Assembly (NCBI GenBank): GCA_018266755.1
Contig: JAFDZW010000001.1
Coordinates: 1 to 64,000, forward strand
Length of the DNA stretch: 64,000 nt
From: Bacteroidota bacterium
GTDB taxonomy: Bacteria > Bacteroidota > Ignavibacteria > Palsa-1295
Reading direction: 5' to 3'
Shown here: in pieces, positions 41,536-62,799 of the stretch
Layout of the letters: every line of letters begins with the position of its first letter
Position numbering within the stretch: the first letter of the stretch is position 1
Notes under the pieces: model-generated
What the model was told of the DNA's origin: nothing
The model's database searches: none
The model's input: the letters and a program-made list of their open reading frames with translations, nothing else
Program-made: the position numbers and the translations under genes

Positions 41536-44500
41536 ATGAGACGTATCAACAAAATCGCGCTTGCATTGCTAGGCCTAGCAATCGCATCCTCGAGTTCGTT
41601 CGCTCAGACCAGCCCGCGCGTTTTCGGCGCAGGCGAGCTGAAGTTGGACGATGGTAGCGGTAATAACGTTTACCTTTCGACGAAGACCGGTACCCTCGGT
41701 ATCGACGCGTCGGGTAACGTGATCCCCGGTGTGCAGACCTTCCCAAGCAACTGCGCATTGTTGGACCTGACCTCCACAACGAAAGGCTTCTTGACGCCCC
41801 GCATGACGACGGCGCAGGAGCTCGCAATTTGTGGCGGCACTCCGAACGAAGGTTTGATCGTCTATAATACGACGACCCACACCCTCGATATCTATAATGG
41901 TATCAGCTGGGGCGCGGTCAGCGGTTGGAATCTTACCGGTAATACGCTTCCCGCAGCGGGCGGCGGCACCGGTGTCGGCCAGAATTTTATCGGTACACTC
42001 AACGGACAGGACTTCGTCATCGCGACGAACGTCGGTGTTGCAGGTTCGGGTGCCGGTGAGCGCATTCGCGTAACGAGCAGTGGTAATGTCGGTATCAGCG
42101 CTACGGGTAGCGCCTTCACGCCGGCGAAGCTTTTCAACGTTGACGGTACGGCTGGAACGGCAAACGTTCGCCTCGCTTCGTTGAGCGGCGCTCCGCTTCT
42201 TGTGCCGGCGCTGAATCTTGCAAACGACGGTATCACGATCGCGGGCATCAATGGTGACCTGTTGAAGTACGATGCCGCAACGGTCGTCGGTACGGTAGCG
42301 TGGCTCCGCACGGGCAACACGGTGCTCGATGGTAACAATACGCTTGGTACGATCAACGATATCACGATCAATATCAAGACAAACAATACCACTCGCGTCA
42401 CGATCGGCAATAGTGCTTCGGCAAATGCAGTAACGATCACCGGTAACGAAACCATCAATGGTAACGATCAGGTGAACGGTACGCTCTCGAGCACAGGCAA
42501 CACAACGCTCGGCACGAACGCTGCTACGACGAACAGCCTCGGTAATACCGGCGCTTCGACGAACAACATCGGTAACGGTGCTGGCGCGACGAACAACATC
42601 GGTAACGGCGGCGGCGCAACGAGCAACACCTTCGGTGCAACCGCGAACCTCAATAACTTTGGTAACGGCGCGGTGAACAACCAGTACGGTAATGCCGCTG
42701 GTACGAACCTCTTCGGTACGAATGCGACGACCAATAACATGGGAACGTCGGGTACGTCGACGAACAATATCCTCGGTGCAACGAACATCAACGTGACGGG
42801 CGGCAATGCGACGAACATCGCAACGACGGCCGCTGCGACGACGAGCATCGGTGTGACTGCCGGTACGAACAATATTGCTGGCGCAACCAATATCAACACC
42901 GGTGGCGCAGCAACGACCAACATCAACACCTTTGCAGGTGGCGGCGCAGTCAATATCGGTGGTACGACCCACACAGGTGCCATCTCGATCGCTGCAAACA
43001 CGGGTTCGGCAATCACTCTCGATGTTGCGAATACGGCAAACAATCTTATCGCGAACAACATCAACCAGGATAACAGCACGGTTAACCTCTTGACCCTCAC
43101 GGGCGTCAATAGCGGTAACGTCCGCACCCGTACCCTCAGCGGTATCATCACGGGTTCGAACGGCGTGGATGTGACCTGGAATGGCACGACCTTCGATGCG
43201 CATCTTGCTCCGGATAATGCAACGGTGCTCTTCGCAAATAACCGTTTCATCAACACGAACGCAAGCACGCTTTCGATCACGAGCGGTAATCCGGGCACAA
43301 CGGTGCTCTTCACGGCTGCTGGTAACACCGTCAATGTGAATAACGCCGTTGCCGGTACGACCAACATCGGAAACGTTGCTGGTTCGACCAACCAGATCGG
43401 TAGTTCGGCAACGTTGAACCAGGTCGGCAATTCCGCGGCAACGAACCAGTTCGGCAACAACGCGACGAGCAACAATTTCGGTAACGTTGCCAATACGAAC
43501 CAGTTCGGTGAAAACGCAACCGGCAACGAATTCGGCGTTTCTAATTCGGCCGCTAACGTCACCAACGCGATCGGTTCGAACACCAACACGGGTAATGTGA
43601 CCAACAATATCGGCAATCGTGCCGGTGCTGGCGCAGTTACGACCAATATCGGTACTGTGGGTACCACCGCGATTAACATCGGTAGCACCGGTGCCGGTGG
43701 AAATGTTTCGATCTCTGCATCGAACGGTCACCCCATCACGATCGACGTTGCAAATACAGCGAATAACCTCGTCGCGAACAATATCAATCAGGACAATACG
43801 ACGGTTAACCTGCTCACGCTTACGGGCGTTAATAGCGGCAATGTCCGTACCCGCTCGCTCAGCGGCATCATTACCGGTTCGAACGGTGTGGATGTGTCCT
43901 GGAACGGTGTTACGTTCGATGCGCACCTCGCTGCGAACAACTCGACGGTACTCTTCGCGAGCGATCGTTTCATCAATACCAATGCTAGCACGCTGCACAT
44001 CACGAGCGGCGGCCCGGCCGGTACAGATTTCGCTACGTTCGCAGGCACGACCATCGGCCTCAACAATACGGCTGTTGGTACCAACAATATCGGTTTCACT
44101 GGCGGTACGAACACCATCGCCGGTAACACGACGATCAATAACAACGTCAACAATACGACGCAGATCAATACCGGTACCAGCACGGGTGCTGTGACGATCG
44201 GTGCAGATAATGTCGGCGCTACGACGAATATTCAGTCGCGCACGACGAGCATCGGCACGAACTCTGCTTCGCAGACGGTCAATGTTGGCACGAGTGGCAT
44301 TGTCAATGTGCAGGGCGCTCCGGTTAATATTAACCAGGCCGGCGCAGGTGCAACGAACATCAACCGCACGGGTACGGGTGCTACGAGCATCGGTAATACG
44401 ACGGGTGGTTCGAACTTCACTGGTCGCGTCACGCTCAACGCTTCGACACCGATCAATGACGGTGCTTCGGACGGTACAAGCAATCAGGTGCTCCACTCGA

Positions 44501-46599: not shown

Positions 46600-47042
46600 G
46601 TAACTTTCACCGTAACCCCGCTGCAAATTGTGCAGCGGGGTTACGGTCTTGTTTTCGGTTTTTACACGGGATACGTTCGCTACCGATCCATCGGGTTGGT
46701 ATTGGAGTTGAAAAAAGAGAGAATTGTTCGGTACGATACGGGACGATCAGCGCAGCACGGCAGCACGCGAGACGGTCTCAAACCCATACCCACAGCAACC
46801 GGTAGGCTACCCCTTTTGCGCTATTAGCGCCGCCGGAGCCGGTGCAGAATGTGATGCTACGACTCTATTATATTGAGGGTCGTTCTTCACTCCATACATG
46901 ATACCATATTCGGTTTCATGTCCCGTTCCTAAGCAACGTAGTTCCTTTGGATTGCGCCGTTAATGTGGTGCATCGAGGAATAGGTTGAACACGGAGCTGT
47001 TTTGAGAAACCCAGTGACGATTGTTAACTCATACCCAAGTAC
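46600..47042. other. Gene-free region between fibre-like genes 1 and 2
   Basis: It opens with a strong terminator (46610-46646). The rest, with TATTATATTG near 46869, has promoter-like AT patches but no clear consensus. No gene was recognised. Confidence 0.5.
46610..46646 (+). terminator. Intrinsic terminator after fibre-like gene 1
   Basis: CCGTAACCCCGCTGCA-AATTG-TGCAGCGGGGTTACGG: a 16-bp perfect stem followed by TCTTGTTTTC. Confidence 0.85.
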
Positions 47043-47819
47043 ATGAAGACCACGATTTTTGCTTACCTTGCTCTGTTGCTTTTTGCCAATATCAGTCTTG
47101 CGCAGCACCGGTTGCAGATTGATAATGGACCAAGCAAGATCGGCATCTTAGATGGCTCGCTTCTTCCGGCCGGGACTACCGTCCTTCAATGGCCTGCCAC
47201 AGGCGGAACGATCATGACTCAAAGCGGAGGCATCACTTCATTCAACGGAGTGAGCTACGCGTGGCCTGCGGCAAATGCGGCCGGTGTACTGACCAATGAC
47301 GGTTCTGGAAATTTGTCCTGGTCGCCGGTTGGTGGTAGCACCTGGACCGGCGGCGGTAGCGCCAACACGATTGCATACTGGACCAGCGCAACCAATCTCA
47401 GCTACAACTCAAATCTTACGTACAACGGAACGACGCTTTCGGTATCAAATAATTCGTCTTCGAACGCACTAACCGTTGCAAACGCAGGTACAGCCGGTGT
47501 GGCGCTCGGTATTGCGAGCGGTCTGGTGAAGCTGTCGACTGAGACGATCGCTATGCCCATAGGCGCAGGCGCAGGGAACATCAATATCGTCGGTAATAAT
47601 GTGATCGTCGTGATCACGGATAATGGTGGTACCGGTGGTGACAAGACGATCGTGTTGCCTAGTGGAGTTGATGGTCAGATCTTGATCATTATTAATAATG
47701 ACAACAACCAAAAGGCAAAAGCACCTGCGGGTAGTGGCGCCGGTTCGGATCTTGATACCGCCGCTAAAGATACCGGTATGTGGATCTATTATGCCAGTGC
47801 ATGGCACCGTTTAGACTAA
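47043..47819 (+). CDS. Exported fibre-like protein 2 (short)
   Basis: It has 258 residues, the shortest member of the array. Signal peptide: MKTTIFAYLALLLFANISLA-Q. The N-terminal module HRLQIDNGPSKIGILDG is a reduced form of the H-N-x-Q-x-D-D-G-x-G-H-Y-S-L-I module of later members. The middle has WTGGGSANTIAYWTSATNLS and NGTTLSVSNNSSSNALTVAN. The C-terminal 90 residues (NNVIVVITDNGGTGGDKTIV, then LPSGVDGQILIIINND and the final WHRLD) repeat the same small beta domain as the other members. It may represent the minimal unit: signal, N-module, short stalk, C-domain. Function unknown. Confidence 0.75.
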   Translation: MKTTIFAYLALLLFANISLAQHRLQIDNGPSKIGILDGSLLPAGTTVLQWPATGGTIMTQSGGITSFNGVSYAWPAANAAGVLTNDGSGNLSWSPVGGSTWTGGGSANTIAYWTSATNLSYNSNLTYNGTTLSVSNNSSSNALTVANAGTAGVALGIASGLVKLSTETIAMPIGAGAGNINIVGNNVIVVITDNGGTGGDKTIVLPSGVDGQILIIINNDNNQKAKAPAGSGAGSDLDTAAKDTGMWIYYASAWHRLD

Positions 47820-48145
47820 TGTGCCGATAATTTTTGCCGCTGGCATCAGGCAGGCACAGTTGCCCGATGCGAGTGGTAGTTTCTTGGATTCTTGTGATGA
47901 AAAACCGATCCGCCTTCCCCACAAGCGGCACGGTGTGTGTGTGAAAACCCAGTGAGTTGTCGTATTGTAAGAAGTTACGGGCTTCTCGCAGTACAATACC
48001 CACCTATAGACTTCCTGCGCGTCTGTCCAGAGCGACTAGGAAGAAAAAATTAGTACTCTTGATCTGACGAATACGGGCGTCAAGACAACGAGAGATGCTT
48101 TTTACAGCGCTAGCTGCACCCCCGGGCAGCTTTCGGGATACAACG
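47820..48145. other. Gene-free region between fibre-like genes 2 and 3
   Basis: No gene seen. A loose hairpin CTTCCT (48011-48016) / AGGAAG (48038-48043) is followed by an A-run. No promoter consensus was clear, and no terminator follows gene 2. Confidence 0.4.
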
Positions 48146-49780
48146 ATGAAAAAAGTACACAATCTGATCGCAGGTGCGGCGTTATGCGTTGCATGTCTTT
48201 CTGTGTCATCCGTTCGAGCCCAGCACAATGTGCAGGTCGATGATGGACATGGGCACTATTCGCTCATTACCGGACAGACGGTCAACGCCTCCGACGTATT
48301 TATGCTGCCGACCGGCGGCGGTACGCTCATAACGGCCCCAACTCCAGGAACACCGAGCCTTGTATGGCTGACAGCAGGGAATACGCTGTCGGCTGGACAG
48401 GTCTTCGGATCGCTTAACGCCTTCGATGTCGTCATGAAAGCCAATGGCGCCGAGAAGATGCGCTTGGTCTCCGGCGGTGGCGTGACGGTCGGCTCCTCGC
48501 TGACGATCAGCACCTTCGCAACGGCCGGCATCGTTCATAATGCTGCAGGCGGTCTGCTTTCGTCGGGGCCTGTGAATCTGGCCAGCAATGGCGCCGGCGG
48601 CGATGTGTCCGGCGTGCTTGCTCCCTCAAATGGCGGTACTGGAGTTTCCAACTCCAATTCCAACACGATCACGCTTGGTGGCCCTGTATCCACCGGCGGA
48701 TCCCTGACCTTCTCCGGCGCATTCGCTACGACGATCAACGTCACCGGCGCTACGAACATCACCCTTCCTACCGCAGGGACACTAATGGCATCGGGCGCAA
48801 GCGCCGGCGGTGATCTCTCGGGCACGTATCCGAACCCGACGGTTGCGAAGATAAATGGCGTTACGCTTGGCTCGACGACTGCAACCGCAGGAAATATCCT
48901 GATCGGTTCCGGCAGCCAGTGGGTATCGAACGCAATGAGCGGCGACGTGACGATGAATAGCACTGGTGTCACGGCAATCGGCGCAGGAAAGGTCTTGAAC
49001 TCGATGCTCGCGAATCCGAGCTTGACAGTCACCGCAGGCACCGGTCTTTCGGGTGGCGGTTCGGTTGCGCTTGGTTCGTCGACGACGCTCAATCTTGCGA
49101 ACACGGCAGTAACGGCAGCTCCGTATGGCGATGCGACGCACGTTGCCACGTTCACAGTAGATGCACAGGGCCGCTTGACCGCAGCCGCAAACGCACTCAT
49201 CACCGGCGTCACGCCGGGCGGTGCTGCCGGCGGCGATCTCTCGGGCACGTATCCGAACCCGACGGTCGCAAAGATCAACGGCAATACCGTGCCGTCGAAT
49301 GCAACAGGCTTCTTGCAGAACAATGGCTCCGGTACGCTTTCGTGGGCCGGTGTCAATCACGATGCGACCCTCGCCGGTAATGGCGTGACGGGCTCGGCCA
49401 TCGGTCTCGATCTTACCCACGGCAACACCTGGACTGGCACACAGACATTCGGTGCTGTTGCCTCCACACCCACCACCCCGTCCGCATTTGCGGCCGGCAA
49501 TAATAATAACGTCGCTCTGAGCGGATCCAACTCGTACTTCCGCGTCTCCGGCGCGTCGGGCGCAGTGCTCACCGGTATTAGCGGCGGTGTTGATGGTCGT
49601 TCCATCACACTGCTCAATGTCGGTGCAAATGCGATCACGCTCAAGAATCAAACGACGTCCACTGTCACGAATCAGTTCGATCTGCCGGGAGGCAGCGATA
49701 TCATCCTCGGGCCCAAGGGTGCGATCACGTTTATCTACGATGGTACACTCGGCTTCTGGGAGGTTACTTCGACGAACTAA
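48146..49780 (+). CDS. Exported tail-fibre-like repeat protein 3
   Basis: It has 544 residues from ATG 48146 (MKKVHNLIAGAALCVACLSV, signal ending RA-Q); the open frame begins 17 codons earlier. The N-terminal module is HNVQVDDGHGHYSLITGQ, then LPTGGGTLITAPTPGTPSLV and WLTAGN. Two copies of the phage-fibre motif GGDLSGTYPNPTVAKINGV occur (residues about 225 and 365), and the NGGTGVSNSNSNTITLGGP spacer is shared with genes 4 and 5. The C-terminal domain is ITLLNVGANAITLKNQTTST, then NQFDLPGGSDIILGPKGAIT and LGFWEVTSTN. It is monocistronic in layout. Export by Sec is clear; the later step is unknown. Confidence 0.78.
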   Translation: MKKVHNLIAGAALCVACLSVSSVRAQHNVQVDDGHGHYSLITGQTVNASDVFMLPTGGGTLITAPTPGTPSLVWLTAGNTLSAGQVFGSLNAFDVVMKANGAEKMRLVSGGGVTVGSSLTISTFATAGIVHNAAGGLLSSGPVNLASNGAGGDVSGVLAPSNGGTGVSNSNSNTITLGGPVSTGGSLTFSGAFATTINVTGATNITLPTAGTLMASGASAGGDLSGTYPNPTVAKINGVTLGSTTATAGNILIGSGSQWVSNAMSGDVTMNSTGVTAIGAGKVLNSMLANPSLTVTAGTGLSGGGSVALGSSTTLNLANTAVTAAPYGDATHVATFTVDAQGRLTAAANALITGVTPGGAAGGDLSGTYPNPTVAKINGNTVPSNATGFLQNNGSGTLSWAGVNHDATLAGNGVTGSAIGLDLTHGNTWTGTQTFGAVASTPTTPSAFAAGNNNNVALSGSNSYFRVSGASGAVLTGISGGVDGRSITLLNVGANAITLKNQTTSTVTNQFDLPGGSDIILGPKGAITFIYDGTLGFWEVTSTN

Positions 49781-49860
49781 CGATTTCCTTTTTACTTGAA
49801 AGATCCTGGCCACGGGGGTTGGGAATATTCGCAATTACAACACGGGATACAATCGCAATT

Positions 49861-51972
49861 ATGAAAAAGCAACTATTCACCGCGCTCGTAGTCGCGCTTG
49901 GGTTCGCCGGTGCAGCTTCTGCACAGACGTACAAGCCTGACTACGCAACGAAGGTCGTGCTCGCCGGTAGCGGCACTGACCTTACAAAAACCATCAGCCT
50001 CGTTGGAGCTACGCCAGGGACTGCTGTTACATACACCTTGCCTGACAAACCGGCGTCAAGCGGCTACATTCTTGCCTCGACGACCGGCGGCACGATGAGC
50101 TGGGTCGACCCGACCTCCGTTTCCAGCGCATGGAATCTCACCGGTAATGCAAGCGGCGTATCGAATTTCATCGGGACGACCGATGCTACGAATCCGTTCG
50201 TGATCAAGACGAACAGCGCAACCCGCATCTCGATCGGCGGAACGGGTACGATCAATGTCGCCGCATTCGGCACGGGCATCGTTCATTCCAGCTCGACCGG
50301 CGATCTCTCGTCGAGCCCCGTTTCCCTCACCGCCGATGTCAGCGGCATTCTGCCCCCGGCAAACGGCGGTACGGGCGTGAACAACGGCTCGAACACGATC
50401 ACCCTCGGCGGAAATATGTCCACCGGCGGCACGTTCTCGACGACCGGCACATTCTCGTCCGGTGGTAACTTCTCGACGACGGGTACGTTCTCGACCGGTG
50501 GTAACTTCTCCACGTCGAACGCCTTCACGACCACGACCGGCCCGATCACGCTCAACGCATTTGATGCAGGCGGGTCGAACGTCACCCTCCCGGCTTCGGG
50601 CACGCTGCTCGCAGCAGGTGGTGCAGGTTCGTTCTCGACCCTGACCTCGACGGGCAACTCGACGATCGGCACGAGCAGCTCGGCAACCAACAACAGCTTC
50701 GGTACGGGCGCTAACGCAAACAGCGTTATCAACACGATCGGCTCGACCGGTACGGGTTCGATGACCACCATCAACGGAGGCGTCACTCTTGGTGCGCTCA
50801 ACACCGCGGGTGTTGTACACACCGATGCTTCGGGAGTGCTGTCGACCACGTTGATCGTCAACGCCGACATCACCAACGGCACGATCGCCAACGCAAAGCT
50901 CGCTAATTCGTCGATCACGTTCGGCAGCACCGGTTCGACCCTGACCTCGTCGGGTTCGGTCTCGCTCGGTGGTACGGTTAACTACGACATCGACCTCACC
51001 CACGCTAACAACTGGACGGGCAAGCAGACCATCACCGGCGCTGGCAACTTCATGTATGTTGATGGGTTCCAGGCTGCAGGTTATGTCCTGACTTCGGATG
51101 CTTCCGGTAATGCCAAGTGGGCCAGCCTTTCGGGTCTCGGCATCACGTCCGTTGTCGGCACGTCGCCGATCAATGTCAACACGGTTTCCGGCACGGCGAC
51201 CGTCTCGATCACGCATGCCGACCTCACCGCTGACGCAACAACCACCGGCCTCAGTGTCACCGGCGGTACGGGTGCCGTCATCGGCAGCGGCGCTTCAGTC
51301 TCGCTTGCACACGATGCAACCTTGAAGGTAGCCACGAGCCAGCTCGGTATCGACCTCGGCCACTCCAACACCTGGACGGCTGACCAGCTCCTGCCGACCT
51401 CGAGCTCGACGCAGGCTGACAACATCGTTGCTGTGCTTAACAATAGCACCACGGCGCTTGGCGTCACGCATGGCGGTACGGGCACGACGACTGCCCCGAC
51501 GCAGGGCGGTGTCGCATTTGGCGTGTCGACCAGCGCACTCGGGTACACCGCTGCCGGTACGGCAGGGCAGGTGCTCCAGTCGAACGGCACCAGCACACCG
51601 ACGTGGGTCAATGCAGGTGCAACGACGACGTATGCATCGAGCACCACGAACAACATCGCGGGTGCGACGAACAACTTTGCGATCTCTTCGACGCAGACTG
51701 TCTATTACCTGCAGAACTCGACTGCTTCGCCGCAGAACCTGACCGGTGTGGTCGCCGGCGCTTCGGGCCGCTTGATCATCCTGATCAATAACGGACCGGA
51801 CCCGATCGTCCTCAAGGACAAGAACGCGGGCAGCACTGCAGCGAACCAGTTCCATCTCCAGGGCGCTTCGGACATCATCCTTGGCGTCGATGGTACGGTA
51901 ACCCTCGTGTACGATCCGAACGCCAGCAACAGCACCGGCACCGGTGCATGGCGCGTCGTCGCGAACTATTAA
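49861..51972 (+). CDS. Exported tail-fibre-like repeat protein 4
   Basis: It has 703 residues from ATG 49861 (MKKQLFTALVVALGFAGAAS, then AQ). The N-terminal module YATKVVLAGSGTDLTKTISL, with YTLPDKPASSGYILA, is a second module type shared with gene 5. The middle has the tandem GGTFSTTGTFSSGGNFSTTG repeats (residues about 195-225), then GGTGVNNGSNTITLGG and LTHANNWTGKQTITGAGNF. The C-terminal 95 residues (VYYLQNSTASPQNLTGVVAG, then RLIILINNGPDPIVLKDKNA and AWRVVANY) are very close to gene 3's C-domain (NQF.L.G.SDIILG..G..T..YD). The GC-rich stem-loop at 51982 follows. It is likely an extracellular fibre. Confidence 0.78.
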   Translation: MKKQLFTALVVALGFAGAASAQTYKPDYATKVVLAGSGTDLTKTISLVGATPGTAVTYTLPDKPASSGYILASTTGGTMSWVDPTSVSSAWNLTGNASGVSNFIGTTDATNPFVIKTNSATRISIGGTGTINVAAFGTGIVHSSSTGDLSSSPVSLTADVSGILPPANGGTGVNNGSNTITLGGNMSTGGTFSTTGTFSSGGNFSTTGTFSTGGNFSTSNAFTTTTGPITLNAFDAGGSNVTLPASGTLLAAGGAGSFSTLTSTGNSTIGTSSSATNNSFGTGANANSVINTIGSTGTGSMTTINGGVTLGALNTAGVVHTDASGVLSTTLIVNADITNGTIANAKLANSSITFGSTGSTLTSSGSVSLGGTVNYDIDLTHANNWTGKQTITGAGNFMYVDGFQAAGYVLTSDASGNAKWASLSGLGITSVVGTSPINVNTVSGTATVSITHADLTADATTTGLSVTGGTGAVIGSGASVSLAHDATLKVATSQLGIDLGHSNTWTADQLLPTSSSTQADNIVAVLNNSTTALGVTHGGTGTTTAPTQGGVAFGVSTSALGYTAAGTAGQVLQSNGTSTPTWVNAGATTTYASSTTNNIAGATNNFAISSTQTVYYLQNSTASPQNLTGVVAGASGRLIILINNGPDPIVLKDKNAGSTAANQFHLQGASDIILGVDGTVTLVYDPNASNSTGTGAWRVVANY

Positions 51973-52136: not shown

Positions 52137-54383
52137 ATGAAACGATTTCTATTCGGACTTGCAGTCTTCTCATTAGCGATACTGGTTGCGACGCAGGCTA
52201 TGGCCCAGACGTACGCAAATCGGTTCGGAAAACTCGTGCTCGGCGGCAACGGCGGCACCGACCTTACGAACACCCTTACGCTCCTGACGAGCGGAAGCGG
52301 CTGGACCACCGGCGCGAAGACCTACGTCTTCCCGCTGCCCGGGACCGGCATCTTCCACTCCGACGGATCCGGCACCCTGACGCTCGGCGCCATCAACCTC
52401 GCTTCCGGCGATGTTACCGGCATCTTACCGCCTGCCAACGGCGGTACGGGCGTCAATAACGGCACCAATACGATCACCATCACCGGCGGCAACGTCTCGA
52501 TCACGGGGCCCTTCAGCGGCACGCCGGTCGCTTCGAGCGGTACGCTCACGGCGAACCGTGTCGTCACGACCGACGGCACCGGCAAGCTCCAGACGACGGA
52601 CCTTGCCAACGGACAACTGCTCATCGGCAACGCCAACTCGTTCACCGCAGCAACGCTCACGGGTACGGCCAACCAGATCACCGTTACCAATGGTACCGGT
52701 ACGATCACGCTTGCGACGCCGCAGAGCATCGGCACTGCTTCCACGCCGACCTTCGGCGGCCTGACGCTTTCCAATCTTACCGCGCAACCGGGCGTCGTGC
52801 ATAATAGCTCGGGCGGTGTGCTTTCATCCGGTGCGGTGGCACTCGGTACGGAAGTGTCCGGTACGCTGCTCCCGACAAACGGCGGTACGGGCGTCTCGAA
52901 CTCCAACTCCAACACGATCACGCTTGGCGGACCGATCGTCACGGCAAATAGCTTTTCGACGGCGGGCAACTTCCCGCTCACGCTCACGACCACTGGCACG
53001 ACGAATATCACGCTCCCGACATCGGGGACGCTTATCGCCAGCGCCGGGGCACTAACGAATAACGGAGTCGTCTCGACCAATGGGTCGGGCAATCTCGTGT
53101 CAACTGCGCTGACCAACGGACAGATCCTCATAGGCAGCACTGGAGCTGCTCCGGTGGCAGCGACGTTGACCGCAGGTTCGAACATCACGATCACCAATGG
53201 CGGTGGCACGATCACGATCGCTTCGACTGCCAGCGGGAGTGGGACAGGTTCCAGCATATACACGGCACCATTCACGGTTGTCGCTGCTACTGGGTCAAGC
53301 GGGACGACTCTTGTTGATGCCGGACTAAACTTCCCGGTAGCGGCGAACGAGGTTTGGGTATTTGAGGCATTTTTATCTTGTAAGGGTGGTGTTGCAGCTC
53401 AAGGTATGAATGTGGCGATTTCGTTCACATCCGGTACGCTTGAAGCAACATCATTTGGGTATAAGGACGGCTCACCGTACCATGCTGGGTCTTTCCGTCA
53501 TACGACCTCAGGGCAGACAAGTAATATTGCATATCTCTCAGATGCTAGCCTTGAGGGAATAATTCGAATCAGCGGTCTAATCGATAACACTGGCGGTAGT
53601 GCAGAAAATGTCAAGATTCAATTCGCATCGGCGGGCACAACAGATGCAACCACGGCAAATGCGTGCCGCGTCTACAAAGGTTCATACTTGGTAGCAACAA
53701 AAACAACCACGCAAGCAGCTGGCAGCACTACAACCTACACTTCAAGCACCACGTGGGTAGTGCCCACAGGTATCTACGCCATCAATGTTGAGGGTATTGG
53801 CGGAGCCGGCGGCGGAGGCGGCGGTGGCGCAGATGCAACGAATGCGGCCAACACCCGTAGTGGTGGTGGTGGTGGTGGTGGTGGTGCCGGTGAGTACATC
53901 GCAGCAAGGACCGTGTCCGTCGTCCCAGGTGAAACGCTAACCATTAGCATCGGGGCTGCCGGGACAGCGGGTGCGGCGGGCGTCGGAAATACCAACACGG
54001 CCGCTACGAACGGTGGCAATGGAGGTACAACAACAGTTGTTGGGTCGACCTCGGGGACGCTATTGAGTGCGAACGGAGGCACAGGCGGGACTGCAGGCAC
54101 CAACGCAGTTGGGGCAAGTGGTACTGGAGGCGCGTTGGGTGCAGGCGGGGTAGTCGCAGGTAGCAGTCCTGCAGGTGGTACCGCGGGTAATTCAGGAACT
54201 GCGGGTGGCAACGGCGCAAATGGCGTCGCTGGAACAGCAGGGAATGGAGGCAGTGGCCCGACGGGTGGCAACGCGAACACTGGTGGTGCGGGCGGTGCAG
54301 GCGCGCTTGGTGTTACCGGCGTGTTTGTCAACGGCAACGCCGGCAATGCCGGCACAGGTGGTTACGTGACGATCTCCTACTAG
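52137..54383 (+). CDS. Exported tail-fibre-like protein 5 with glycine-rich tip domain
   Basis: It has 748 residues from ATG 52137 (MKRFLFGLAVFSLAILVATQ, then AMA-Q). The N-module FGKLVLGGNGGTDLTNTLTL is shared with gene 4. The middle has GGTGVSNSNSNTITLGGPIV and NGQILIGSTGAAPVAATLTA. Residues about 410-540 form a compact domain of ordinary composition (VFEAFLSCKGGVAAQGMNVA, then AGSFRHTTSGQTSNIAYLSD). From about 545 a glycine-rich domain begins: YTSSTTWVVPTGIYAINVEG, a GGGGGGADAT run, then EYIAARTVSVVPGETLTISI and about 140 residues of GG-A-G-T-N-G patches. This is the layout of the Gly-rich tip of Gp38-type phage adhesins, in which glycine strands form a polyglycine sandwich. It ends GGYVTISY. 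Confidence 0.8.
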   Translation: MKRFLFGLAVFSLAILVATQAMAQTYANRFGKLVLGGNGGTDLTNTLTLLTSGSGWTTGAKTYVFPLPGTGIFHSDGSGTLTLGAINLASGDVTGILPPANGGTGVNNGTNTITITGGNVSITGPFSGTPVASSGTLTANRVVTTDGTGKLQTTDLANGQLLIGNANSFTAATLTGTANQITVTNGTGTITLATPQSIGTASTPTFGGLTLSNLTAQPGVVHNSSGGVLSSGAVALGTEVSGTLLPTNGGTGVSNSNSNTITLGGPIVTANSFSTAGNFPLTLTTTGTTNITLPTSGTLIASAGALTNNGVVSTNGSGNLVSTALTNGQILIGSTGAAPVAATLTAGSNITITNGGGTITIASTASGSGTGSSIYTAPFTVVAATGSSGTTLVDAGLNFPVAANEVWVFEAFLSCKGGVAAQGMNVAISFTSGTLEATSFGYKDGSPYHAGSFRHTTSGQTSNIAYLSDASLEGIIRISGLIDNTGGSAENVKIQFASAGTTDATTANACRVYKGSYLVATKTTTQAAGSTTTYTSSTTWVVPTGIYAINVEGIGGAGGGGGGGADATNAANTRSGGGGGGGGAGEYIAARTVSVVPGETLTISIGAAGTAGAAGVGNTNTAATNGGNGGTTTVVGSTSGTLLSANGGTGGTAGTNAVGASGTGGALGAGGVVAGSSPAGGTAGNSGTAGGNGANGVAGTAGNGGSGPTGGNANTGGAGGAGALGVTGVFVNGNAGNAGTGGYVTISY

Positions 54384-54414: not shown

Positions 54415-54440
54415 CGGCAGGCCTTCGGGCCTGCCGCTTT
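54415..54440 (+). terminator. Intrinsic terminator after fibre-like gene 5
   Basis: CGGCAGGCC-TTCG-GGCCTGCCG with a stable tetraloop, then CTTTTGC. Confidence 0.88.
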
Positions 54441-54541
54441 TGCTTACCTACGTTTTTTGTAAAATTCTTGTTTCTAAAGTTGTTTATTATCAATAGTTTA
54501 CAGAAAAAATCGTGTAGTGTGATTGCGCGAGGTCGTTTCGC

Positions 54542-54572
54542 TTGGAATATGGTCCTTGTCTGCGTATATTTG
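54542..54572 (+). promoter_or_regulatory. Promoter of fibre-like gene 6
   Basis: TTG (54542-54544), a 20-nt spacer, and TATATTTG (54565-54572), a perfect TAnnTTTG. The spacing matches that of the gene 7 promoter exactly. Confidence 0.7.
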
Positions 54573-54754: not shown

Positions 54755-57349
54755 ATGAAAAAACTGATCGCACTTGCCGTGTGCCTGTTGCTCACAGGAC
54801 AAGCCACAGCTCAACGCCATAGCGCACAGATCGATGACGGCGCTGGTCATTATTCACTGATTACCGGCAGTAACCCCGGCGGCACGTTCGTGCTACCTGC
54901 GGGCGGCGGTTCGATCCTCGTCGCAACGACCCCCGGCGTCTCGTCGGCGTGGCTCTTGGGCGGGAATCTCTCATCGAGCCCGAACAACCAGATCGGGACG
55001 CTCGATGCGACAAGCTTCAATATCGTCACCAACGGCGTTGGCAATGTCCGGATGTCGTTCTCCTCAGCCGGTGCAATCACGATGCCTGCGTTGTCCAACG
55101 GCGTGATGCACATCACGGGCGGCACGGGCACGCTTGCGTCGAGCTTGATCGTCGACGCCGATGTCAGCGGCTCGGCATCGATCGGCTACGGAAAGCTGAA
55201 TCTGACGAACTCGATCCAGAACGCGGACATCGTCGCCAATGCCATCACGACTTCGAAGGTCGCGAATGGTACGGTCACGACGAGCAAGTTAGCCGACAGC
55301 GCCGTCACCGGCTTGAAGCTGCTTTCGCACTCCGTCACGCCGAACCACATGGATATGACGGGTTCGAGCAACGGTAATGTTCTGACGAACGTTGGCGGCA
55401 GCGCGACGTGGACAGCACCGAGCGGCACCCCGACCGGCCCCGCCGGTGGTGATCTCGGCGGTACCTATCCGAATCCCACGATCGCCAATAGCGCGGTCAC
55501 GAGTGCGAAGATCTTGGACGGCACGATCGTTGATGCCGATGTGAGCCCGACAGCCAACATCGCATACTCGAAGCTCGCACTGACGAACTCGATCCAAAAC
55601 TCCGATATCGTCGCCAACGCCATTACGACATCGAAAGTCGCCAACGGTACGGTGACGACCAGCAAAATGGCCGATAGCGCGATCACCGGCTTGAAGCTGC
55701 TTTCGCACTCGGTCACGCCGAACCACATGGATATGACGGGTTCGAGCAACGGCGACATCTTGACGAACGTTGGTGGGAGTGCGACGTGGACAGCACCAGC
55801 CTCCGCGACGGTGACAACGAACTCGACGCTCAGCGGTAATGGTACCGTCGGTTCGCCGCTTGGCATCAACCTCGGGAATTCGAATACGTGGACAGCGAAT
55901 CAGACATTCGGCGGCACATTCCTGATCACGGCAAACTCTCGCATTGCGATGACCAACAGCGACAACCAGGCACGCGATATCCGCTTCCAGGAACCGAGCG
56001 GCACGGGTTCGCAGTATGTCGGCTTCCGTTGTCCGTCTGTGTCGAACAATGGCAACTACCTGTTCCCGGCAGCCGTCGGCGCCGTCGGCGATGTTCTGAC
56101 GCTTTCGTATAGCAACGGTGTTGACTCGGCCTACATGGTATGGTCGACGCCCAGCCATTCGCCGACTGGCGCAGCGGGTGGTGATCTGACGGGTACGTAT
56201 CCGAACCCGACGATTGCTGCGAATGCAATCACGAGTGCGAAGATCCTCGACGGTACGATCGTCGATGCCGACGTTTCAGGAACGGCTGCGATTGCATATT
56301 CCAAGCTTTCGCTGACGAACTCGATCCAAAATGCAGATATCGTCGCCAACGCCATCACGACCTCGAAAGTCGCGAATGGTACGGTGACGACGAGCAAGTT
56401 GGCTGACAGCGCCGTCAGCGGGTTGAAGCTGTTGACCAAGGCAGTGACCCCGAACCACATGAATATGACGGGTTCGAACAATGGCGATGTGCTGACGAAT
56501 GTCGGCGGAAACGCCGCATGGACGGCACCGACCGCGACGCCGACCGGCGCTGCAGGTGGCGATCTGACCGGCACGTATCCGAACCCGACGATCGCTGCAG
56601 GTGCAGTGACGAACGCGGATATTGCCGCTGCAGCCGGAATCCCGTACTCGAAGCTTACCCTGACGAACTCGATCCAGAACATCGATATCGTCGCTAATGC
56701 CATCACGACCTCGAAGGTCGCCAACGGTACGGTGACGACGAGCAAGTTGGCTGACAGCTCCGTCAGCGGGTTGAAGCTGCTGACACATGCGGTTACATAC
56801 AACCACATGAGCTCATTTGGCGCGAACTCGGGCGATGTGCTCACGAATGTCGGTGGCACGGTGCAGTGGGCTGCTCCGAGCTCGAGCTCGGGTACGACGA
56901 TCACGAAGGCGAAAGTCAGCGATGAGTCGCGCACGAGCACCACGACCTTGGCCGATGACGGCGCGTTGGCGTCGATCGCTCTAAACGCAAGCTCAACCTA
57001 CACGGTATCCGGCATGTTGAACGTCGAGTGCGCGAACAACGCACCGGATGTGAAGATCGCCTTCAACTTTACGGGTACGACCACAACAATGCGCATTGTC
57101 ACGCATGACATCGGTCGCGGCGCCGGCAATAACCAGGTTAACCAGGAGGTGGTATGGAATACGAGTGGTGGTGCCCAAGCCTTCACGAACGACGGCGGTA
57201 CGAATAAGCACACATGGATCATGTTCAGCGGTGTGATTCAGACGGGTGCCAGCTCCGGCAACCTCAGCGTCCAGTGGGCGCAGAACACCAGCAGTACGAA
57301 CGCAACGACCATGCTCACCGGCTCGAACATCACAGTAGTGAAGCAATAA
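54755..57349 (+). CDS. Exported tail-fibre-like repeat protein 6
   Basis: It has 864 residues from ATG 54755 (MKKLIALAVCLLLTGQATA-Q). The N-module is HSAQIDDGAGHYSLITGSNP, then LPAGGGSILVATTPG. The stalk is built of four near-identical units of about 100 residues: SIQNADIVANAITTSKVANG, TVTTSKLADS, SVTPNHMDMTGSSNG and VLTNVGGSATW (starting near 55198, 55590, 56320, 56665). They are separated by phage-fibre motifs GGDLTGTYPNPTIA. The C-terminal part (ALASIALNASSTYTVSGMLN, then VECANNAPDVKIAFNFTGTT and NITVVKQ) is a different domain from the other members, possibly a jelly-roll head. It is preceded by a structured leader and followed by a strong terminator. Confidence 0.8.
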   Translation: MKKLIALAVCLLLTGQATAQRHSAQIDDGAGHYSLITGSNPGGTFVLPAGGGSILVATTPGVSSAWLLGGNLSSSPNNQIGTLDATSFNIVTNGVGNVRMSFSSAGAITMPALSNGVMHITGGTGTLASSLIVDADVSGSASIGYGKLNLTNSIQNADIVANAITTSKVANGTVTTSKLADSAVTGLKLLSHSVTPNHMDMTGSSNGNVLTNVGGSATWTAPSGTPTGPAGGDLGGTYPNPTIANSAVTSAKILDGTIVDADVSPTANIAYSKLALTNSIQNSDIVANAITTSKVANGTVTTSKMADSAITGLKLLSHSVTPNHMDMTGSSNGDILTNVGGSATWTAPASATVTTNSTLSGNGTVGSPLGINLGNSNTWTANQTFGGTFLITANSRIAMTNSDNQARDIRFQEPSGTGSQYVGFRCPSVSNNGNYLFPAAVGAVGDVLTLSYSNGVDSAYMVWSTPSHSPTGAAGGDLTGTYPNPTIAANAITSAKILDGTIVDADVSGTAAIAYSKLSLTNSIQNADIVANAITTSKVANGTVTTSKLADSAVSGLKLLTKAVTPNHMNMTGSNNGDVLTNVGGNAAWTAPTATPTGAAGGDLTGTYPNPTIAAGAVTNADIAAAAGIPYSKLTLTNSIQNIDIVANAITTSKVANGTVTTSKLADSSVSGLKLLTHAVTYNHMSSFGANSGDVLTNVGGTVQWAAPSSSSGTTITKAKVSDESRTSTTTLADDGALASIALNASSTYTVSGMLNVECANNAPDVKIAFNFTGTTTTMRIVTHDIGRGAGNNQVNQEVVWNTSGGAQAFTNDGGTNKHTWIMFSGVIQTGASSGNLSVQWAQNTSSTNATTMLTGSNITVVKQ

Positions 57350-57380
57350 AGCCGACCTGAGGATCTACATCTTATGAAAA

Positions 57381-57407
57381 AGCAGGCCCATCCGGCCTGC
57401 TTTTTTT
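57381..57407 (+). terminator. Intrinsic terminator after fibre-like gene 6
   Basis: AGCAGGCC-catcc-GGCCTGCT followed by a run of seven T. Confidence 0.92.
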
Positions 57408-57507
57408 GTCCTATATACGAGTCCGTCGTCTCCCAACCTATTAATTTTATTCGAAATAAGCTATTGTGTGTCAAAAAGAGGGCATTATAGGCCTAAAATC
57501 CGAATAA

Positions 57508-57539
57508 TTTGGATTCGATCAAAAACCGTTGTATATTTG
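57508..57539 (+). promoter_or_regulatory. Promoter of fibre-like gene 7
   Basis: TTTG (57508-57511), a 20-nt spacer, TATATTTG (57532-57539): a full match to the Bacteroidota consensus. Confidence 0.72.
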
Positions 57540-57717
57540 TATGGAAGTCAATGGATTTTTGCCCTTTTATTTCGGACTGTTGAGAGAATTAGCCATGTGA
57601 GAGTCCGAGCCCAGATACAAACTGGAATGTCGAAGTAATAGTATAGTGGCGGAGCAATAGTGTTCGCCAGCAGCACATTAGGATTTGCAGTTTTTTTGAT
57701 ACTCAGACATTCGAATT
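57540..57717 (+). ncRNA. Candidate structured 5' leader RNA, copy B
   Basis: TTTTTGCCCTTTTA (57556-57569) is followed by the hairpin TTCGGACT (57571-57578) / AGTCCGAG (57602-57609), with loop GTTGAGAGAATTAGCCATG plus TGAG. Compared with copy A, two stem pairs differ on both strands (G-C to T-A and T-A to C-G), which keeps pairing. A later GGCG...CGCC hairpin lies near 57641-57665. GCAGCAC is followed by a T-run (57692-57698), as in copy A. Confidence 0.65.
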
Positions 57718-60700
57718 ATGAAACAGTCGATCGCATTCCTGCTTTGCGCGTTGTTCGCAACGACGGCGCTTGCCCAGCAGCCTCATAACCTTCAGCTTGA
57801 TGACGGTTTGGGGCATTTCTCCCTAATCCAGGGATCCTTCACTGGTGGAACATATACGCTACCTCCTGGCGGCGGCATGATCCTCACGGCTCCGCAACCC
57901 GGGACGGCCTCGCTTGCGTGGCTTACCCACGGCAACTTGTTGCTTGACAGCGACTGGACCAACAATATCCTCGGCAATCTGGATAACTATCCGTTGCGCA
58001 TCGTTACGAATGCGATGACGCGTATCTATGTCGCGGCTGATGGAACGACCAATATCAATGACAGTGCCTACGCTGTTACGCATATCGGTAACGGTTCGGC
58101 AAATCCGCAGCTCGTTATTCAGGGTTCGCCCGACGCAATTTCTGGCGACTCGTACCCGAGTTCGAAATGGGATCTCGACGTGCAAGGCGATGCAGCCGTG
58201 TCCGGGATCGCGCGTTTCGGGCAGTCCGGCGCCAGCATCTGGATCGACGGATCGAGCTTCCCGAATAATTCGATCGTTTCGGATTTCAACCTTGCGCTCG
58301 AATCGTATCCGAGTTTCTCGGTGCTGATCAACGATGCGAACGGCAACAATACGAATATCAACTCATCGGTATCGGCAACGACGACGATCGGCACGAATTC
58401 CAACGGTTCGACGATCAACCTCAATGCCCCGACGATCTCGGCGCCGAATATTCCCTCGAGCGTGACGGCCACAAATGTGCTCGTGCTCAATAGCGGCAAT
58501 ATCGAGCAATCGTCACTGTCGTTCGTCACCGGCTCCGGCACCGTGAATACGATTCCGAAGTGGACGCCAAGCACGAATACGCTCGGCGATTCGAAGCTGA
58601 CAGACGATGGCACGACCTTGAATTACAACAGCGGCTCGTTCACGGCTGCGGCGACTGGTATTACGATGACAGCCGATGATCCGGGTGCGGGCGTCGGAGA
58701 CGCCGGGCAGATCGTGGTTCGCGGCTCGACCGATAATAACCAGCAGCTGAAGATCGGCTACAATACGAGTGGTGACTATGCGACGATCATGTCCATCCGC
58801 CAGGGGTTCGGCGGTCGCGCACTGTATATCAATCCGCTCGCCGGAAATGTTGGAATCGGATATACCGGCGGCACGTCTCTGACCGCTGCCCTCAACGTCA
58901 ATGGTACCGTCAAGATCGCTTCGCTTCCGGCAAGCGCATCGAGCACGGTCGTGACCTCGAATAGCGGTACACTCGAATCCCGGCCCATTGGCGAAATCGC
59001 CGTTACAGGTACCGGCACGCAGAACTTCATTACAAAGTGGAATAACGCAGGCGGTACGACCATCGGCAATTCGTTGCTCTCCGACGACGGTACAACTTTG
59101 AACTACAACACCGGCATGTTTACGGTCGCATCCGCAACCGGCAACACAGTGACCGGCGGTTCGCTCACAGTTGGTAACTTGACGACCAACGGCGTCGTGC
59201 ACGCAACTGGCGGCACGGGCCTTTTGGCTTCGAGCCTGATTGTCAATGCAGACGTCGATCCGGCGGCTGCGATCGCCTACTCGAAGTTGAACCTCGCATC
59301 GAGCATTGTCAACGGCGACCTCGCCGGTGGCGTGTATGGCGCGATCACGGGTATCGGCACGCAGAGCCAGGCGCTGAACATGAACTCGCACCTGATCAAC
59401 AACGTGACCGACCCGGCTTCTGCACAGGATGCGGCCACGAAGAACTACGTTGATAATTCGATCACGAACGCCGTCACTGCCGGAACAATTGGGCAGCTTG
59501 CGATCTATACAGGCACCAACTCGATCGGTAGCACGAATCTCAGCGGCGATGTGACGACCAGCAACAGCGCGGTCACCACGATCGCGACCGGTGCAGTCAC
59601 GAGCGGTAAGATTCTTGATGGTACGATCGATAATGTCGATGTCAGTGCTACGGCAGCGATCGCCTACTCGAAGTTGAACCTCGCATCGAGCATTGTCAAC
59701 GGCGACCTCGCCGGTGGCGTGTATGGCGCGATCACGGGTATCGGCACGCAGGGCCAGGCACTCGACATGAACTCGCACCTGATCAATAACGTGACCGACC
59801 CGGCTTCCGCCCAGGATGCTGCCACGAAGAACTACGTCGATAACACCATCACCTCGACGGCATGGGTACACACCGGCAACTCAGGGTTGACCGATAACAC
59901 GAATAACTTCCTGGGTACGTCAGATGATGTTCAGTTGCGTATCGTCACCAACGGTACGACACAAATGATCGTAGATAATTCGGTCAATCCGCATACACTT
60001 GACATGGTGGCAGGCGGTACGGTGACAAACGTTGGACACATCAACGCTGGGGGCGGTACGATCAACTTGGACGATAATACGGATCTGAACAACCACGACC
60101 TCAGCAATCTCGGCTATGTGACGATCAATACGGGCGGTGGGGCAACCATCAAGTCGGCTACCGGAACAGACGGTGTGTCGATCAACGACTTCGTGGATAT
60201 GAATAACCATCGGATCGTTAACGTCGTCGATCCGACATCCGCTCAGGATGCTGCGACGAAGAACTACGTGGACAACTCGATCACAACTGGCATCAACGGC
60301 GCAGTCAACGGGACGACGGGCCAGCTCGCAGTCTTCACCGGAACGCATGCAGTCGGTAATGGCGATCTCAGCGGTGATGTGACTACCGCCGGAACAACTG
60401 CGACAACGATCGCGAACGGCGCGGTGACGAGCGCGAAGATTGCAGACGGTACGATTGATAACGTCGATATTAGTAACACGGCAGCAATTGCCTACTCGAA
60501 GTTGAATCTCGCTTCGAGCATCGTCAACGGCGACCTCGCCGGTGGCGTGTACGGCGCGATCACGGGCCTCGGCACACAGAGCCAGGCGCTCGACATGGGT
60601 ACCACCAATAAGATCGTCAACTTGGCCGATCCGACATTGGCCCAGGATGCTGCGACTAAGAACTATGTCGATAACTCGATCACGACGGGCGTCAACGCTG

Positions 60701-62799
60701 CAGTTACCGGCACGACCGGTCAGCTTGCGGTCTTCACCGGAACGCATGCAGTCGGCAACGGTAACCTTACCGGGGATGTGACGACCAGCGGTACGACGGC
60801 GACGACGATTGCGAACAATGCGGTGACTACCGCCAAGATCGCAAACTCGAACGTCACGTACGCAAAGTTGCAGAACGAGTCGCCACTGACGATTCTCGGC
60901 AATGCTTCCGGTAGTGCCGCAGCACCGTCAGAAATCACGCTCGGCACCGGACTGACCTTCCCGACCACGTCGTCGATCGCGTTGGCAAATACGACGGTCT
61001 CGGCAGGTACATACGGCAACGCGACGACTGTCCCGACGATCACCGTCGATGCACAAGGCCGTTTGACATCCGTGGTTAGTACGACGATCTCCGGCGTTAC
61101 GCCGGGCGGCGCGGCAGGCGGCGATCTCACCGGAACGTATCCGAATCCAACTATTGCGAACTCGGCCGTTACGAGCGCAAAAATCTTGGACGGTACTATT
61201 GTTGATGCCGACGTTAGCCCCACAGCGGCGATTGCCTACTCGAAGTTGAATCTGACGGGTAGCATCGTCAATGCGGATGTATCGGCTATTGCCGGGATCG
61301 TGTACTCGAAGCTAAACCTCGCAAGCAGCATCGTCAACACGGACATTGCACCTGCTGCTGCGATCGCATACTCGAAGTTGAACCTGACAAACAGCATCGC
61401 CACTGCCGACCTCACCAATAGCTCGGTTACCTACGCGAAGATCCAGAACGAAACCAATGGAACGTTGCTGGGTAATAACTCTGGCGCTGCAGCGGCTCCG
61501 TCAGAGCTCACGCTGGGTGGCGGGCTTACGTTCGCATCGGCTTCGTCGATCGACCTGTCAAATACTACCGTGTCCGCGGGTTCCTATGGTGACGCGACAC
61601 ATGTAGGTGCGTTCACCGTTGACGCTCAGGGCCGCTTGACGGCAGCCTCCAGTGTCCTGATCTCGGGTACCACACCTGGTGGTGCAGCTGGCGGCGATCT
61701 CACCGGAACGTATCCGAATCCGACAATTGCGAATGGTGCAGTGACGAGTGCGAAGATTGCAGACGGTACGATCGATAATGTCGATATTAGCAACACGGCA
61801 GCGATTGCCTACTCGAAGTTGAATCTCGCTTCGAGCATCGTCAACGGCGACCTCGCCGGCGGTGTCTATGGTGCGATCACGGGCCTCGGCACGCAGAGCC
61901 AGGCACTGGATATGGGTACCACGAACAAGATCATCAACTTGGCCGATCCCACGTTGGCCCAGGATGCTGCCACAAAGAACTATGTTGATAACGCCGTGAC
62001 AAATGGCGCCCTTGGCGGTGATCTGAGTGGTACGGTTGGTAATGCAACGGTTGCAAAGATCAACGGCGCAACGCTCGGTACGACGACGGCAACGGATGGT
62101 AATATCCTTGTCGCCGATGCCACAAACCTGTGGCAGTCCGTTCCGATGTCGGGTGATGTTACAATCGTGAATACCGGAGCCACGACGATCGGAACGGGTG
62201 CTGTGACTACCACAAAGATCGCCGATGCAAACGTTACCTACGCAAAGATCCAGAACGTAGCGGATGCAAGGCTGCTGGGTAATAACTCGGGTGCTGCTGC
62301 GGCTCCGTCCGAGATCTCGCTCGGTACCAGCCTCGCATTCACCGGCTCGACGCTGAACACGATCCAGGACATCCGCACGACGGCTACGCCGACGTTTAGC
62401 AGTGTCACCGCGACGAACAATGTGAATGCAAGTTCGGGCTCGTTGCAGACCGCCGGGACGACCCGTATCAATAACTCTGGTACGGCGACACTGACGGGTA
62501 TCGCGGGTAGCTTTGTTACAAAGACTGCAAACTACACCGCAACCGCGACAGACCGTTTCGTGCTCGCCGATGCTGGTACTGCAGCAGCAGCGCTCACGAT
62601 TACGTTGCCCGCAGCAACCAATGCCGGACTGATGATCACGGTCATTGCAAAGGGTACGACCGGTGCGAACACTGTTAGTGTCGTTGCGGCCGGAACCGAT
62701 GTCATTGTTGGCGCAATCCCGGCCTTCAATGGAATTGACGGAGCAGTATCGCTGGTGGCGGATGGATCTGGTACATGGTACGTCTACTCACATGAGTAA
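57718..62799 (+). CDS. Giant exported tail-fibre-like repeat protein 7
   Basis: It has 1693 residues. Signal: MKQSIAFLLCALFATTALA-Q. N-module: HNLQLDDGLGHFSLIQGSFT, then LPPGGGMILTAPQPGTASLA and WLTHGN. The stalk contains five copies of the phage tail-fibre motif DP(A/T)xAQDAATKNYVDN (near 59407, 59795, 60228, 60627, 61943), four copies of a SKLNLASSIVNGDLAGGVYG block, and GGDLTGTYPNPTIANSAVTS. The first two blocks share identical 96-bp DNA (59269-59364 and 59656-59751). The C-terminal domain (SFVTKTANYTATATDRFVLA, then LTITLPAATNAGLMITVIAK and TWYVYSHE) matches that of gene 1. It is the largest member with gene 1; the two bracket the array. No sorting domain for T9SS is present. Confidence 0.8.
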   Translation: MKQSIAFLLCALFATTALAQQPHNLQLDDGLGHFSLIQGSFTGGTYTLPPGGGMILTAPQPGTASLAWLTHGNLLLDSDWTNNILGNLDNYPLRIVTNAMTRIYVAADGTTNINDSAYAVTHIGNGSANPQLVIQGSPDAISGDSYPSSKWDLDVQGDAAVSGIARFGQSGASIWIDGSSFPNNSIVSDFNLALESYPSFSVLINDANGNNTNINSSVSATTTIGTNSNGSTINLNAPTISAPNIPSSVTATNVLVLNSGNIEQSSLSFVTGSGTVNTIPKWTPSTNTLGDSKLTDDGTTLNYNSGSFTAAATGITMTADDPGAGVGDAGQIVVRGSTDNNQQLKIGYNTSGDYATIMSIRQGFGGRALYINPLAGNVGIGYTGGTSLTAALNVNGTVKIASLPASASSTVVTSNSGTLESRPIGEIAVTGTGTQNFITKWNNAGGTTIGNSLLSDDGTTLNYNTGMFTVASATGNTVTGGSLTVGNLTTNGVVHATGGTGLLASSLIVNADVDPAAAIAYSKLNLASSIVNGDLAGGVYGAITGIGTQSQALNMNSHLINNVTDPASAQDAATKNYVDNSITNAVTAGTIGQLAIYTGTNSIGSTNLSGDVTTSNSAVTTIATGAVTSGKILDGTIDNVDVSATAAIAYSKLNLASSIVNGDLAGGVYGAITGIGTQGQALDMNSHLINNVTDPASAQDAATKNYVDNTITSTAWVHTGNSGLTDNTNNFLGTSDDVQLRIVTNGTTQMIVDNSVNPHTLDMVAGGTVTNVGHINAGGGTINLDDNTDLNNHDLSNLGYVTINTGGGATIKSATGTDGVSINDFVDMNNHRIVNVVDPTSAQDAATKNYVDNSITTGINGAVNGTTGQLAVFTGTHAVGNGDLSGDVTTAGTTATTIANGAVTSAKIADGTIDNVDISNTAAIAYSKLNLASSIVNGDLAGGVYGAITGLGTQSQALDMGTTNKIVNLADPTLAQDAATKNYVDNSITTGVNAAVTGTTGQLAVFTGTHAVGNGNLTGDVTTSGTTATTIANNAVTTAKIANSNVTYAKLQNESPLTILGNASGSAAAPSEITLGTGLTFPTTSSIALANTTVSAGTYGNATTVPTITVDAQGRLTSVVSTTISGVTPGGAAGGDLTGTYPNPTIANSAVTSAKILDGTIVDADVSPTAAIAYSKLNLTGSIVNADVSAIAGIVYSKLNLASSIVNTDIAPAAAIAYSKLNLTNSIATADLTNSSVTYAKIQNETNGTLLGNNSGAAAAPSELTLGGGLTFASASSIDLSNTTVSAGSYGDATHVGAFTVDAQGRLTAASSVLISGTTPGGAAGGDLTGTYPNPTIANGAVTSAKIADGTIDNVDISNTAAIAYSKLNLASSIVNGDLAGGVYGAITGLGTQSQALDMGTTNKIINLADPTLAQDAATKNYVDNAVTNGALGGDLSGTVGNATVAKINGATLGTTTATDGNILVADATNLWQSVPMSGDVTIVNTGATTIGTGAVTTTKIADANVTYAKIQNVADARLLGNNSGAAAAPSEISLGTSLAFTGSTLNTIQDIRTTATPTFSSVTATNNVNASSGSLQTAGTTRINNSGTATLTGIAGSFVTKTANYTATATDRFVLADAGTAAAALTITLPAATNAGLMITVIAKGTTGANTVSVVAAGTDVIVGAIPAFNGIDGAVSLVADGSGTWYVYSHE
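59269..59364 (+). repeat. Direct repeat inside fibre-like gene 7, copy 1
   Basis: These 96 bp are identical to 59656-59751. The unit encodes the IAYSKLNLASSIVNGDLAGG block. Less similar copies lie near 60487 and 61801. Confidence 0.85.
59656..59751 (+). repeat. Direct repeat inside fibre-like gene 7, copy 2
   Basis: Identical to 59269-59364, 387 bp away. Identity at synonymous sites points to recent duplication or gene conversion. Confidence 0.85.

Follow-up and report, generated by a model that had tools for sequence, protein, structure and literature searches.

Seven tandem Sec-exported, tail-fibre-like proteins of a Bacteroidota genome as candidate mosaic surface adhesins comparable to Bdellovibrio MAT fibres

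Why would a bacterium encode, in one row, seven proteins that are built like phage tail fibres and that each start with an export signal, and would such proteins serve the cell or a phage? The question is raised by a 64,000-nucleotide stretch of contig JAFDZW010000001.1 of a Bacteroidota bacterium (Ignavibacteria, Palsa-1295), hereafter the window. The ORF list of the window contains seven consecutive plus-strand ORFs, F1–F7, that together span positions 41536–62799 and for several of which the likely ATG lies downstream of the listed ORF start. Their translations confirmed the common architecture described in an earlier, sequence-only reading, namely a signal peptide ending in AQ, an N-terminal module (N-module) and a Gly/Asn/Thr-rich stalk. 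The Sec signal ending in ...AQ was recognised by eye at the start of all seven proteins; a crude signal rule also called 7/7, but as it called 9/27 of the other window ORFs as well, the rule alone is not specific. The mature proteins consist of approximately 55–67% G+N+T+A+S, are almost devoid of Cys and Glu, and contain few charged residues.

F1 (41536..46599, 1687 aa) combines its Sec signal with a class-A N-module (about 41608-42030; '...CALLDLTSTTKGFLTPRMTTAQ...EGLIVYNTTTHTLDIYNG..W...GN...NFIGT'), which carries the TSTTKGFLTPRM motif, a long Asn/Gly/Thr stalk, and a beta domain of ~90 aa as tip (46330-46596), and is followed by a strong intrinsic-terminator-like hairpin with 17 perfect pairs (46609..46647). 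The smallest member, F2 (47043..47819, 258 aa), has a class-B N-module, a short stalk and a beta tip. F3 (48146..49780, 544 aa) is composed of a Sec signal, a class-B N-module (48218-48490), a stalk with GGDLSGTYPNPTVA and a beta-sandwich tip (49451-49777), while F4 (49861..51972, 703 aa) shows the same order of Sec signal, N-module, stalk and beta-sandwich tip (51640-51969). In F5 (52137..54383, 748 aa), Sec signal, N-module and stalk lead into two C-terminal domains, an F6-type domain (about 53310-53740) and a Gly-rich tip of ~215 aa (about 53733-54380), with a terminator-like hairpin at 54415..54436. F6 (54755..57349, 864 aa) carries a Sec signal, a class-B N-module and DUF5907/tail-fibre repeats, and ends in a ~145-aa domain ('...VQWAQNTSS...') that is common to relatives; a perfect 12-bp stem-loop behind it (57377..57405) is a possible terminator, and F4 is likewise followed by a stem-loop, both being shorter than the hairpins of F1, F5 and F7. 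Finally, F7 (57718..62799, 1693 aa) features a Sec signal, a class-B N-module (57775-58053), a long stalk with GGDLTGTYPNPTIA and AQDAATKNYVDN repeats and a ~95-aa beta tip of the F1 type (62500-62796), with a terminator-like hairpin downstream (62830..62856); all of these features lie on the plus strand. The earlier description of a small C-terminal beta domain thus holds for F1/F7 and F3/F4 (~90 aa), but not for the whole array, as the C-termini are not of one kind (~145 aa in F6, two domains in F5).

The intergenic spacers of 80–443 bp, together with the hairpins and stem-loops between the genes, suggest that F1–F7 are probably transcribed as several units and not as a single late operon. 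The GC content of the array (54–59%) equals that of its flanks. All 20 window genes scanned outside the array were of host type, including lysine aminomutase, SurE, phosphate acetyltransferase and NADH dehydrogenase, and none was a phage gene, in line with the initial observation that the array has no head, tail or lysis genes as neighbours. Two of the host genes encode proteins with a type IX secretion system (T9SS) tail. At window positions 8-6633, a large Ig/PKD protein with a T9SS tail is directly followed by an OmpA-family protein, perhaps as cargo and partner.

The class-B N-module (HxxQxDDGxGHYSLI...LPxGGG) is common to F2, F3, F6 and F7, with divergent versions in F4 and F5, and inspection revealed that classes A and B in most cases share its second half (W-x-L-x-GN ... 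N-x-x-G-T-x-D ... TN). In 69 of 75 complete host proteins for which a signal was predicted, the module followed the cleavage site within 20 residues, and its median start over the 75 was 5 residues behind that site. A structural model of the N-module was partly confident (pLDDT 71), with a core (61-100) at about 90; the nearest solved structures to this core were parts of phage Mtd, CBA120 TSP3 and the trimerisation domains of collagen XV/XVIII (Z 3.6-5.2), a suggestive resemblance of the modelled core to trimerising domains.

Domain searches of the full proteins supported the view that the stalks contain repeats of phage long tail fibres: Pfam matched DUF5907 in F6 and F7 and Phage_T7_tail in F7, and F5, F6 and F7 matched tail-fibre families in PHROGs, while Gly_rich_2 was found in F5 as a sub-threshold match. 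At E<=1, F1–F7 matched neither peptidase S74 nor the YadA membrane anchor in Pfam, nor the T9SS sorting domain Por_Secre_tail (PF18962 or TIGR04183), which bears out what had been read from the sequence on S74 and T9SS. Domain scans found no catalytic domain or known anchor in the seven proteins, and no C-terminal end common to all of them was found. The F4 tip, modelled with fair quality from four sequences (pLDDT 77.6, pTM 0.74), aligned at Z 6.8-11.6 with ten chains comprising phage tailspikes, spikes, baseplates as well as 6o38 and 4dny, compared with Z<=3.2 for other folds, and retrieved fifteen predicted viral proteins from BFVD at E<=1e-3, including a named phage tail fibre. The F4 tip is therefore predicted to fold like phage tailspike domains. 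Searches of viral contigs with tip profiles detected a single weak relative for each of the F7, F3/F4 and F1/F7 tips and no relative of the F6 tip, and PDB sequence searches with the tip profiles returned chance-level matches only. A tblastn search of F7 against named phages gave no match, perhaps owing to low-complexity filtering.

The family is widespread. An N-module profile search of Bacteroidota, which had been proposed as a check alongside the sequence-only reading, found the class-A module in 106 genomes of an evenly drawn sample of 395, corresponding to 65 of 170 genera, and a five-row module alignment run against named genomes gave five loci. Arrays recur in relatives as well, with five genes in one genome (G003) and three each in two others (G156 and G310). 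The C-termini of 86 relatives matched S74 (12), FISUMP (4), Collar (3), Phage_depo_C (3), YadA_head (2), BclA_C (2) and Lcl_C (1), with weak T9SS-A tail matches in up to four; as S74 and weak T9SS C-termini occur in these other members, their absence is a property of F1–F7 and not of the family. The stalk of one member of the G003 array matched the solved YadA head of UspA1 (3pr7) at E=8e-23. The UspA1 head is a trimeric beta-roll. By eye, the three-fibre array of G156, which has the same N-module (L168:5415-13283), has ends that look like T9SS-A tails; plausible as this is, scans of the full-length proteins did not confirm it at E<=0.001.

Within the genome of the window itself, at least 15 fibre genes of this family were found, array included; those outside the array lie on C1 (two, at 519 kb), C5 (952, 961, 967, 1118 and 1354 kb) and C6. 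Three observations accompany them: two tandem tail-collar-type proteins near a lone fibre gene (L034:11722-12843; C5 about 1357.7-1358.8 kb), a broken remnant on C7 in which a module fragment without signal is followed by a separate tip-like ORF (L035:7904-8883), and a different type of exported protein on C6, starting with '..QIPRQISYQGLIVSPNGNPISDG..', that adjoins fibre genes (L226:11364-12929) and that may resemble the N-domain of Bdellovibrio MATs.

Comparison with related genomes revealed that the array has a stable place. In a sister species of the same genus (G001), the F1 orthologue, which exceeds 2300 aa, lies at the same chromosomal position; as in the window, its upstream neighbours are two D-Ala ligase-like genes, one GNAT gene and a lysine aminomutase gene (names assigned by likeness to the window genes). 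In another genus of the same family (G002), F3, F4 and F5 orthologues stand in a row on a contig (L227) with RuvA, PGK and GAPDH. Together with the arrays in other relatives, these findings support the expectation of conserved arrays. The tips of the F3 orthologue (L227:18064-19485, minus strand) and the F4 orthologue (L227:16324-17985, minus strand) are about 62% and 67% identical, respectively, with changes in the former mostly at third codon positions, whereas the F5 orthologue has kept its N-part and carries a different tip. Between F1 and its G001 orthologue, the N-part is 67-78% identical and the ends are conserved, while identity in the stalk falls to 21%. Overall, orthologue ends are conserved, with most changes at third codon positions, and stalks, which are less conserved than ends, and some tips are replaced. 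The third-position excess at the conserved ends and the different F5 tip thus directly show both protein-level selection on the ends and an exchange of tips.

This combination closely recalls the MAT superfamily of Bdellovibrio bacteriovorus, whose members possess a signal peptide, a conserved, beta-rich N-domain of ~130 aa, a trimeric stalk and swapped tips, S74 or other, and are displayed at the cell surface, with glycan binding by one member, a prey-binding role and an unknown surface partner of the N-domain (PMC10769870). The likeness to MATs (8ond, 8oml) lies in the order of signal peptide, conserved domain and long phage-fibre-like stalk, in many paralogues per genome, and in exchangeable C-terminal tips with and without S74, here seen in relatives and orthologues. 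In contrast, F1–F7 form a tandem seven-gene array in a Bacteroidota genome and lack S74, and surface display is demonstrated only for Bdellovibrio. The capping-loop motif described for the beta-helix stalk of MATs, V-G-x-G/N...P-x-x-x-L (PMC10769870), was absent from F1–F7 (0/7); among 105 wider family members, 34 contain 73 instances, with none in shuffled sequences. The N-module profile marginally matched the MAT chain Bd2133 (8ond) at E=0.006 through an ERMRIxxxGNVGIGTxxP stretch. The structures solved for MATs are of C-terminal parts, and a search with one long-repeat relative gave no match to MAT chains. As the capping-loop motif is absent from the seven and the MAT N-domain is available here by description only, membership of the MAT superfamily is not established.

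By analogy, our best reading is that the array works like MAT fibres, and we consider it rather likely that F1–F7 are mosaic adhesive fibres of this kind, probably trimeric surface adhesins. Each fibre would be exported by Sec and cross the outer membrane, with the N-module behind the signal peptide holding it near the cell surface. A stiff, probably trimeric beta-helical stalk, as suggested by the phage-fibre and YadA-type repeats, would project outward, so that the N-end would face the cell and the C-end, in an adhesive role, the surroundings. Tip diversity, orthologue tip swaps and phage tailspike folds point to an exchangeable binding tip on the stalk, and several paralogues may provide a repertoire of binding specificities.

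The similarity to phage fibres and tailspikes extends over stalk repeats, tip folds and the TSTTKGFLxPRM module, including a T7-type N-terminal motif, DUF5907 repeats, a depolymerase C-terminal beta-sandwich and an Mtd-type trimerising motif. Viral contigs contain the module very often, with at least 574 confirmed matches. Viral copies usually end a long ORF without signal, 65 of 102 lying within 15 residues of the C-terminus compared with 0 of 96 host copies, a contrast that is partly by construction as the host set was gathered with the N-terminal module profile. The array thus differs from phage fibres in lacking a virion-attachment context and in the N-terminal position of the host module behind a Sec signal, the module being C-terminal in most viral ORFs. 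However, about 7 of 80 viral loci from IMG/VR contigs encode a fibre with a clear signal peptide (L112:8087-11317, L051:8960-10981, L054:7022-9835, L086:8648-11287, L111:7589-10270, L087:4238-6911 and L047:8245-10932, all within the tail-to-lysis blocks of uncultivated phage contigs). In L112 and L051, the genes around the fibre gene are those for head-tail adaptor, portal, tape measure or endolysin. Signal-peptide fibres in such tail-to-lysis blocks often precede another small signal-peptide protein.

A comparable arrangement was found in the genome under study, where a prophage-like segment (C5 about 1104.8-1121.7 kb; L235:12269-19269, L225:140-10667) contains an HTH repressor-like gene, terminase, portal, head-tail adaptor, a signal-peptide fibre of the family and a metalloprotease-like gene. 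The fibre, a class-B member at 1118.6-1121.0 kb whose N-part is 37% identical to F6, lies downstream of the terminase large subunit, the portal (PF04860, E=4e-53) and the head-tail adaptor. The 2.4 kb that separate adaptor and fibre showed no tape measure gene, so that the segment looks like a reduced prophage. The claim that an own export signal sets the array proteins apart from phage proteins therefore falls: such fibres, module and signal peptide included, occur in uncultivated phage contigs, and one member of the family lies in the C5 segment. A Sec signal is accordingly no proof of a cellular role, and some family members may serve phages. What remains of the case for cellular surface fibres is the exported, cell-encoded and prophage-free array, its place kept in the sister species, the recurrence of arrays in relatives, and a coherent adhesin-like architecture.

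The arrays may plausibly be of phage origin. Their modules also occur in Bacteroidota phages, and the ancestral genes may stem from prophages or have been carried by them for a time. One broader possibility is that phages and Bacteroidota share export-tagged fibres, with Sec-signal phage fibres acting on the infected or lysogenic cell, not or also on the virion, and host arrays as their domesticated descendants; we rate this as somewhat unlikely. The proposal that the array grew from prophage signal-peptide fibres and still acts for phages, e.g. through lysogenic-conversion surface proteins that alter adhesion or exclude other phages, and not as an adhesin system of the host, can draw on the fibres in phage tail/lysis blocks, on the C5 member and on the phage-type repeats and tips of the array. 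It appears improbable given that the 20 scanned window genes include no phage gene, that the array keeps its place in the sister species and an orthologue row lies near housekeeping genes in another genus, and that the array has separate terminators and the GC content of its flanks.

As another alternative, the seven might leave through the T9SS as cryptic cargo, by a signal missed by current CTD models. The window's genome has SprA and T9SS-tail proteins, a few relatives show weak T9SS-A tail matches, and all 106 genomes with the class-A module are SprA positive compared with 303 of 395 overall. This seemingly strong co-occurrence was discounted, however, since it is weak by genus: SprA occurs in 164 of 170 sampled genera, and the SprA-negative genomes belong to few genera, those listed being nearly all from one family. 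Furthermore, F1–F7 have neither a CTD match at E<=1 nor a common C-terminal end, the matches of relatives failed to reach E<=0.001 in full-length scans, and Bdellovibrio MATs are surface displayed without such tails being described (PMC10769870). Given the 164 SprA-positive genera and seven proteins without sorting domain, T9SS export of F1–F7 is possible but unsupported, and we think cryptic cargo quite unlikely. Least likely of all, and very improbable, is a role of the proteins as structural filler (matrix or sheath), either secreted or in the periplasm and with no specific binding, which would suit the low-complexity stalks and the lack of a detected catalytic domain or known anchor, but not tips that are better conserved than stalks, exchanged as units and matched by phage receptor-binding folds.

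Other known surface systems correspond to F1–F7 in part. Trimeric autotransporters (YadA/UspA1, type Vc) share the YadA-head beta-roll stalks of some relatives (the 3pr7 match), whereas F1–F7 lack the YadA membrane anchor in Pfam. T9SS adhesins (SprB type, with type A/B CTD cargo) are likewise Bacteroidota cell-surface repeat proteins with Sec signals, from which F1–F7 differ by having no type A CTD, and from peptidase S74 fibres the seven differ by having no S74, a domain found in 12 of 86 relatives.

Taken together, the array most likely represents a known, MAT-like kind of fibre; less expected are how widely this kind occurs in Bacteroidota and that there are phages with export-tagged fibres of comparable make. 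More than a quarter of the sampled Bacteroidota genomes hold such Sec-exported proteins, mostly without a recognised outer-membrane route, and the papers searched describe no function for them, our search for literature on host-encoded tail-fibre proteins of Bacteroidota having found no paper. These data re-pose the question of how fibres of this kind get through the outer membrane and stay attached to it. The signal-peptide fibres in phage tail/lysis blocks call into question a common assumption on the purpose of phage fibres. In bacteria that are not described here as predators, the link to MATs provides a testable role for the family as a whole, namely to recognise other cells, glycans or surfaces.
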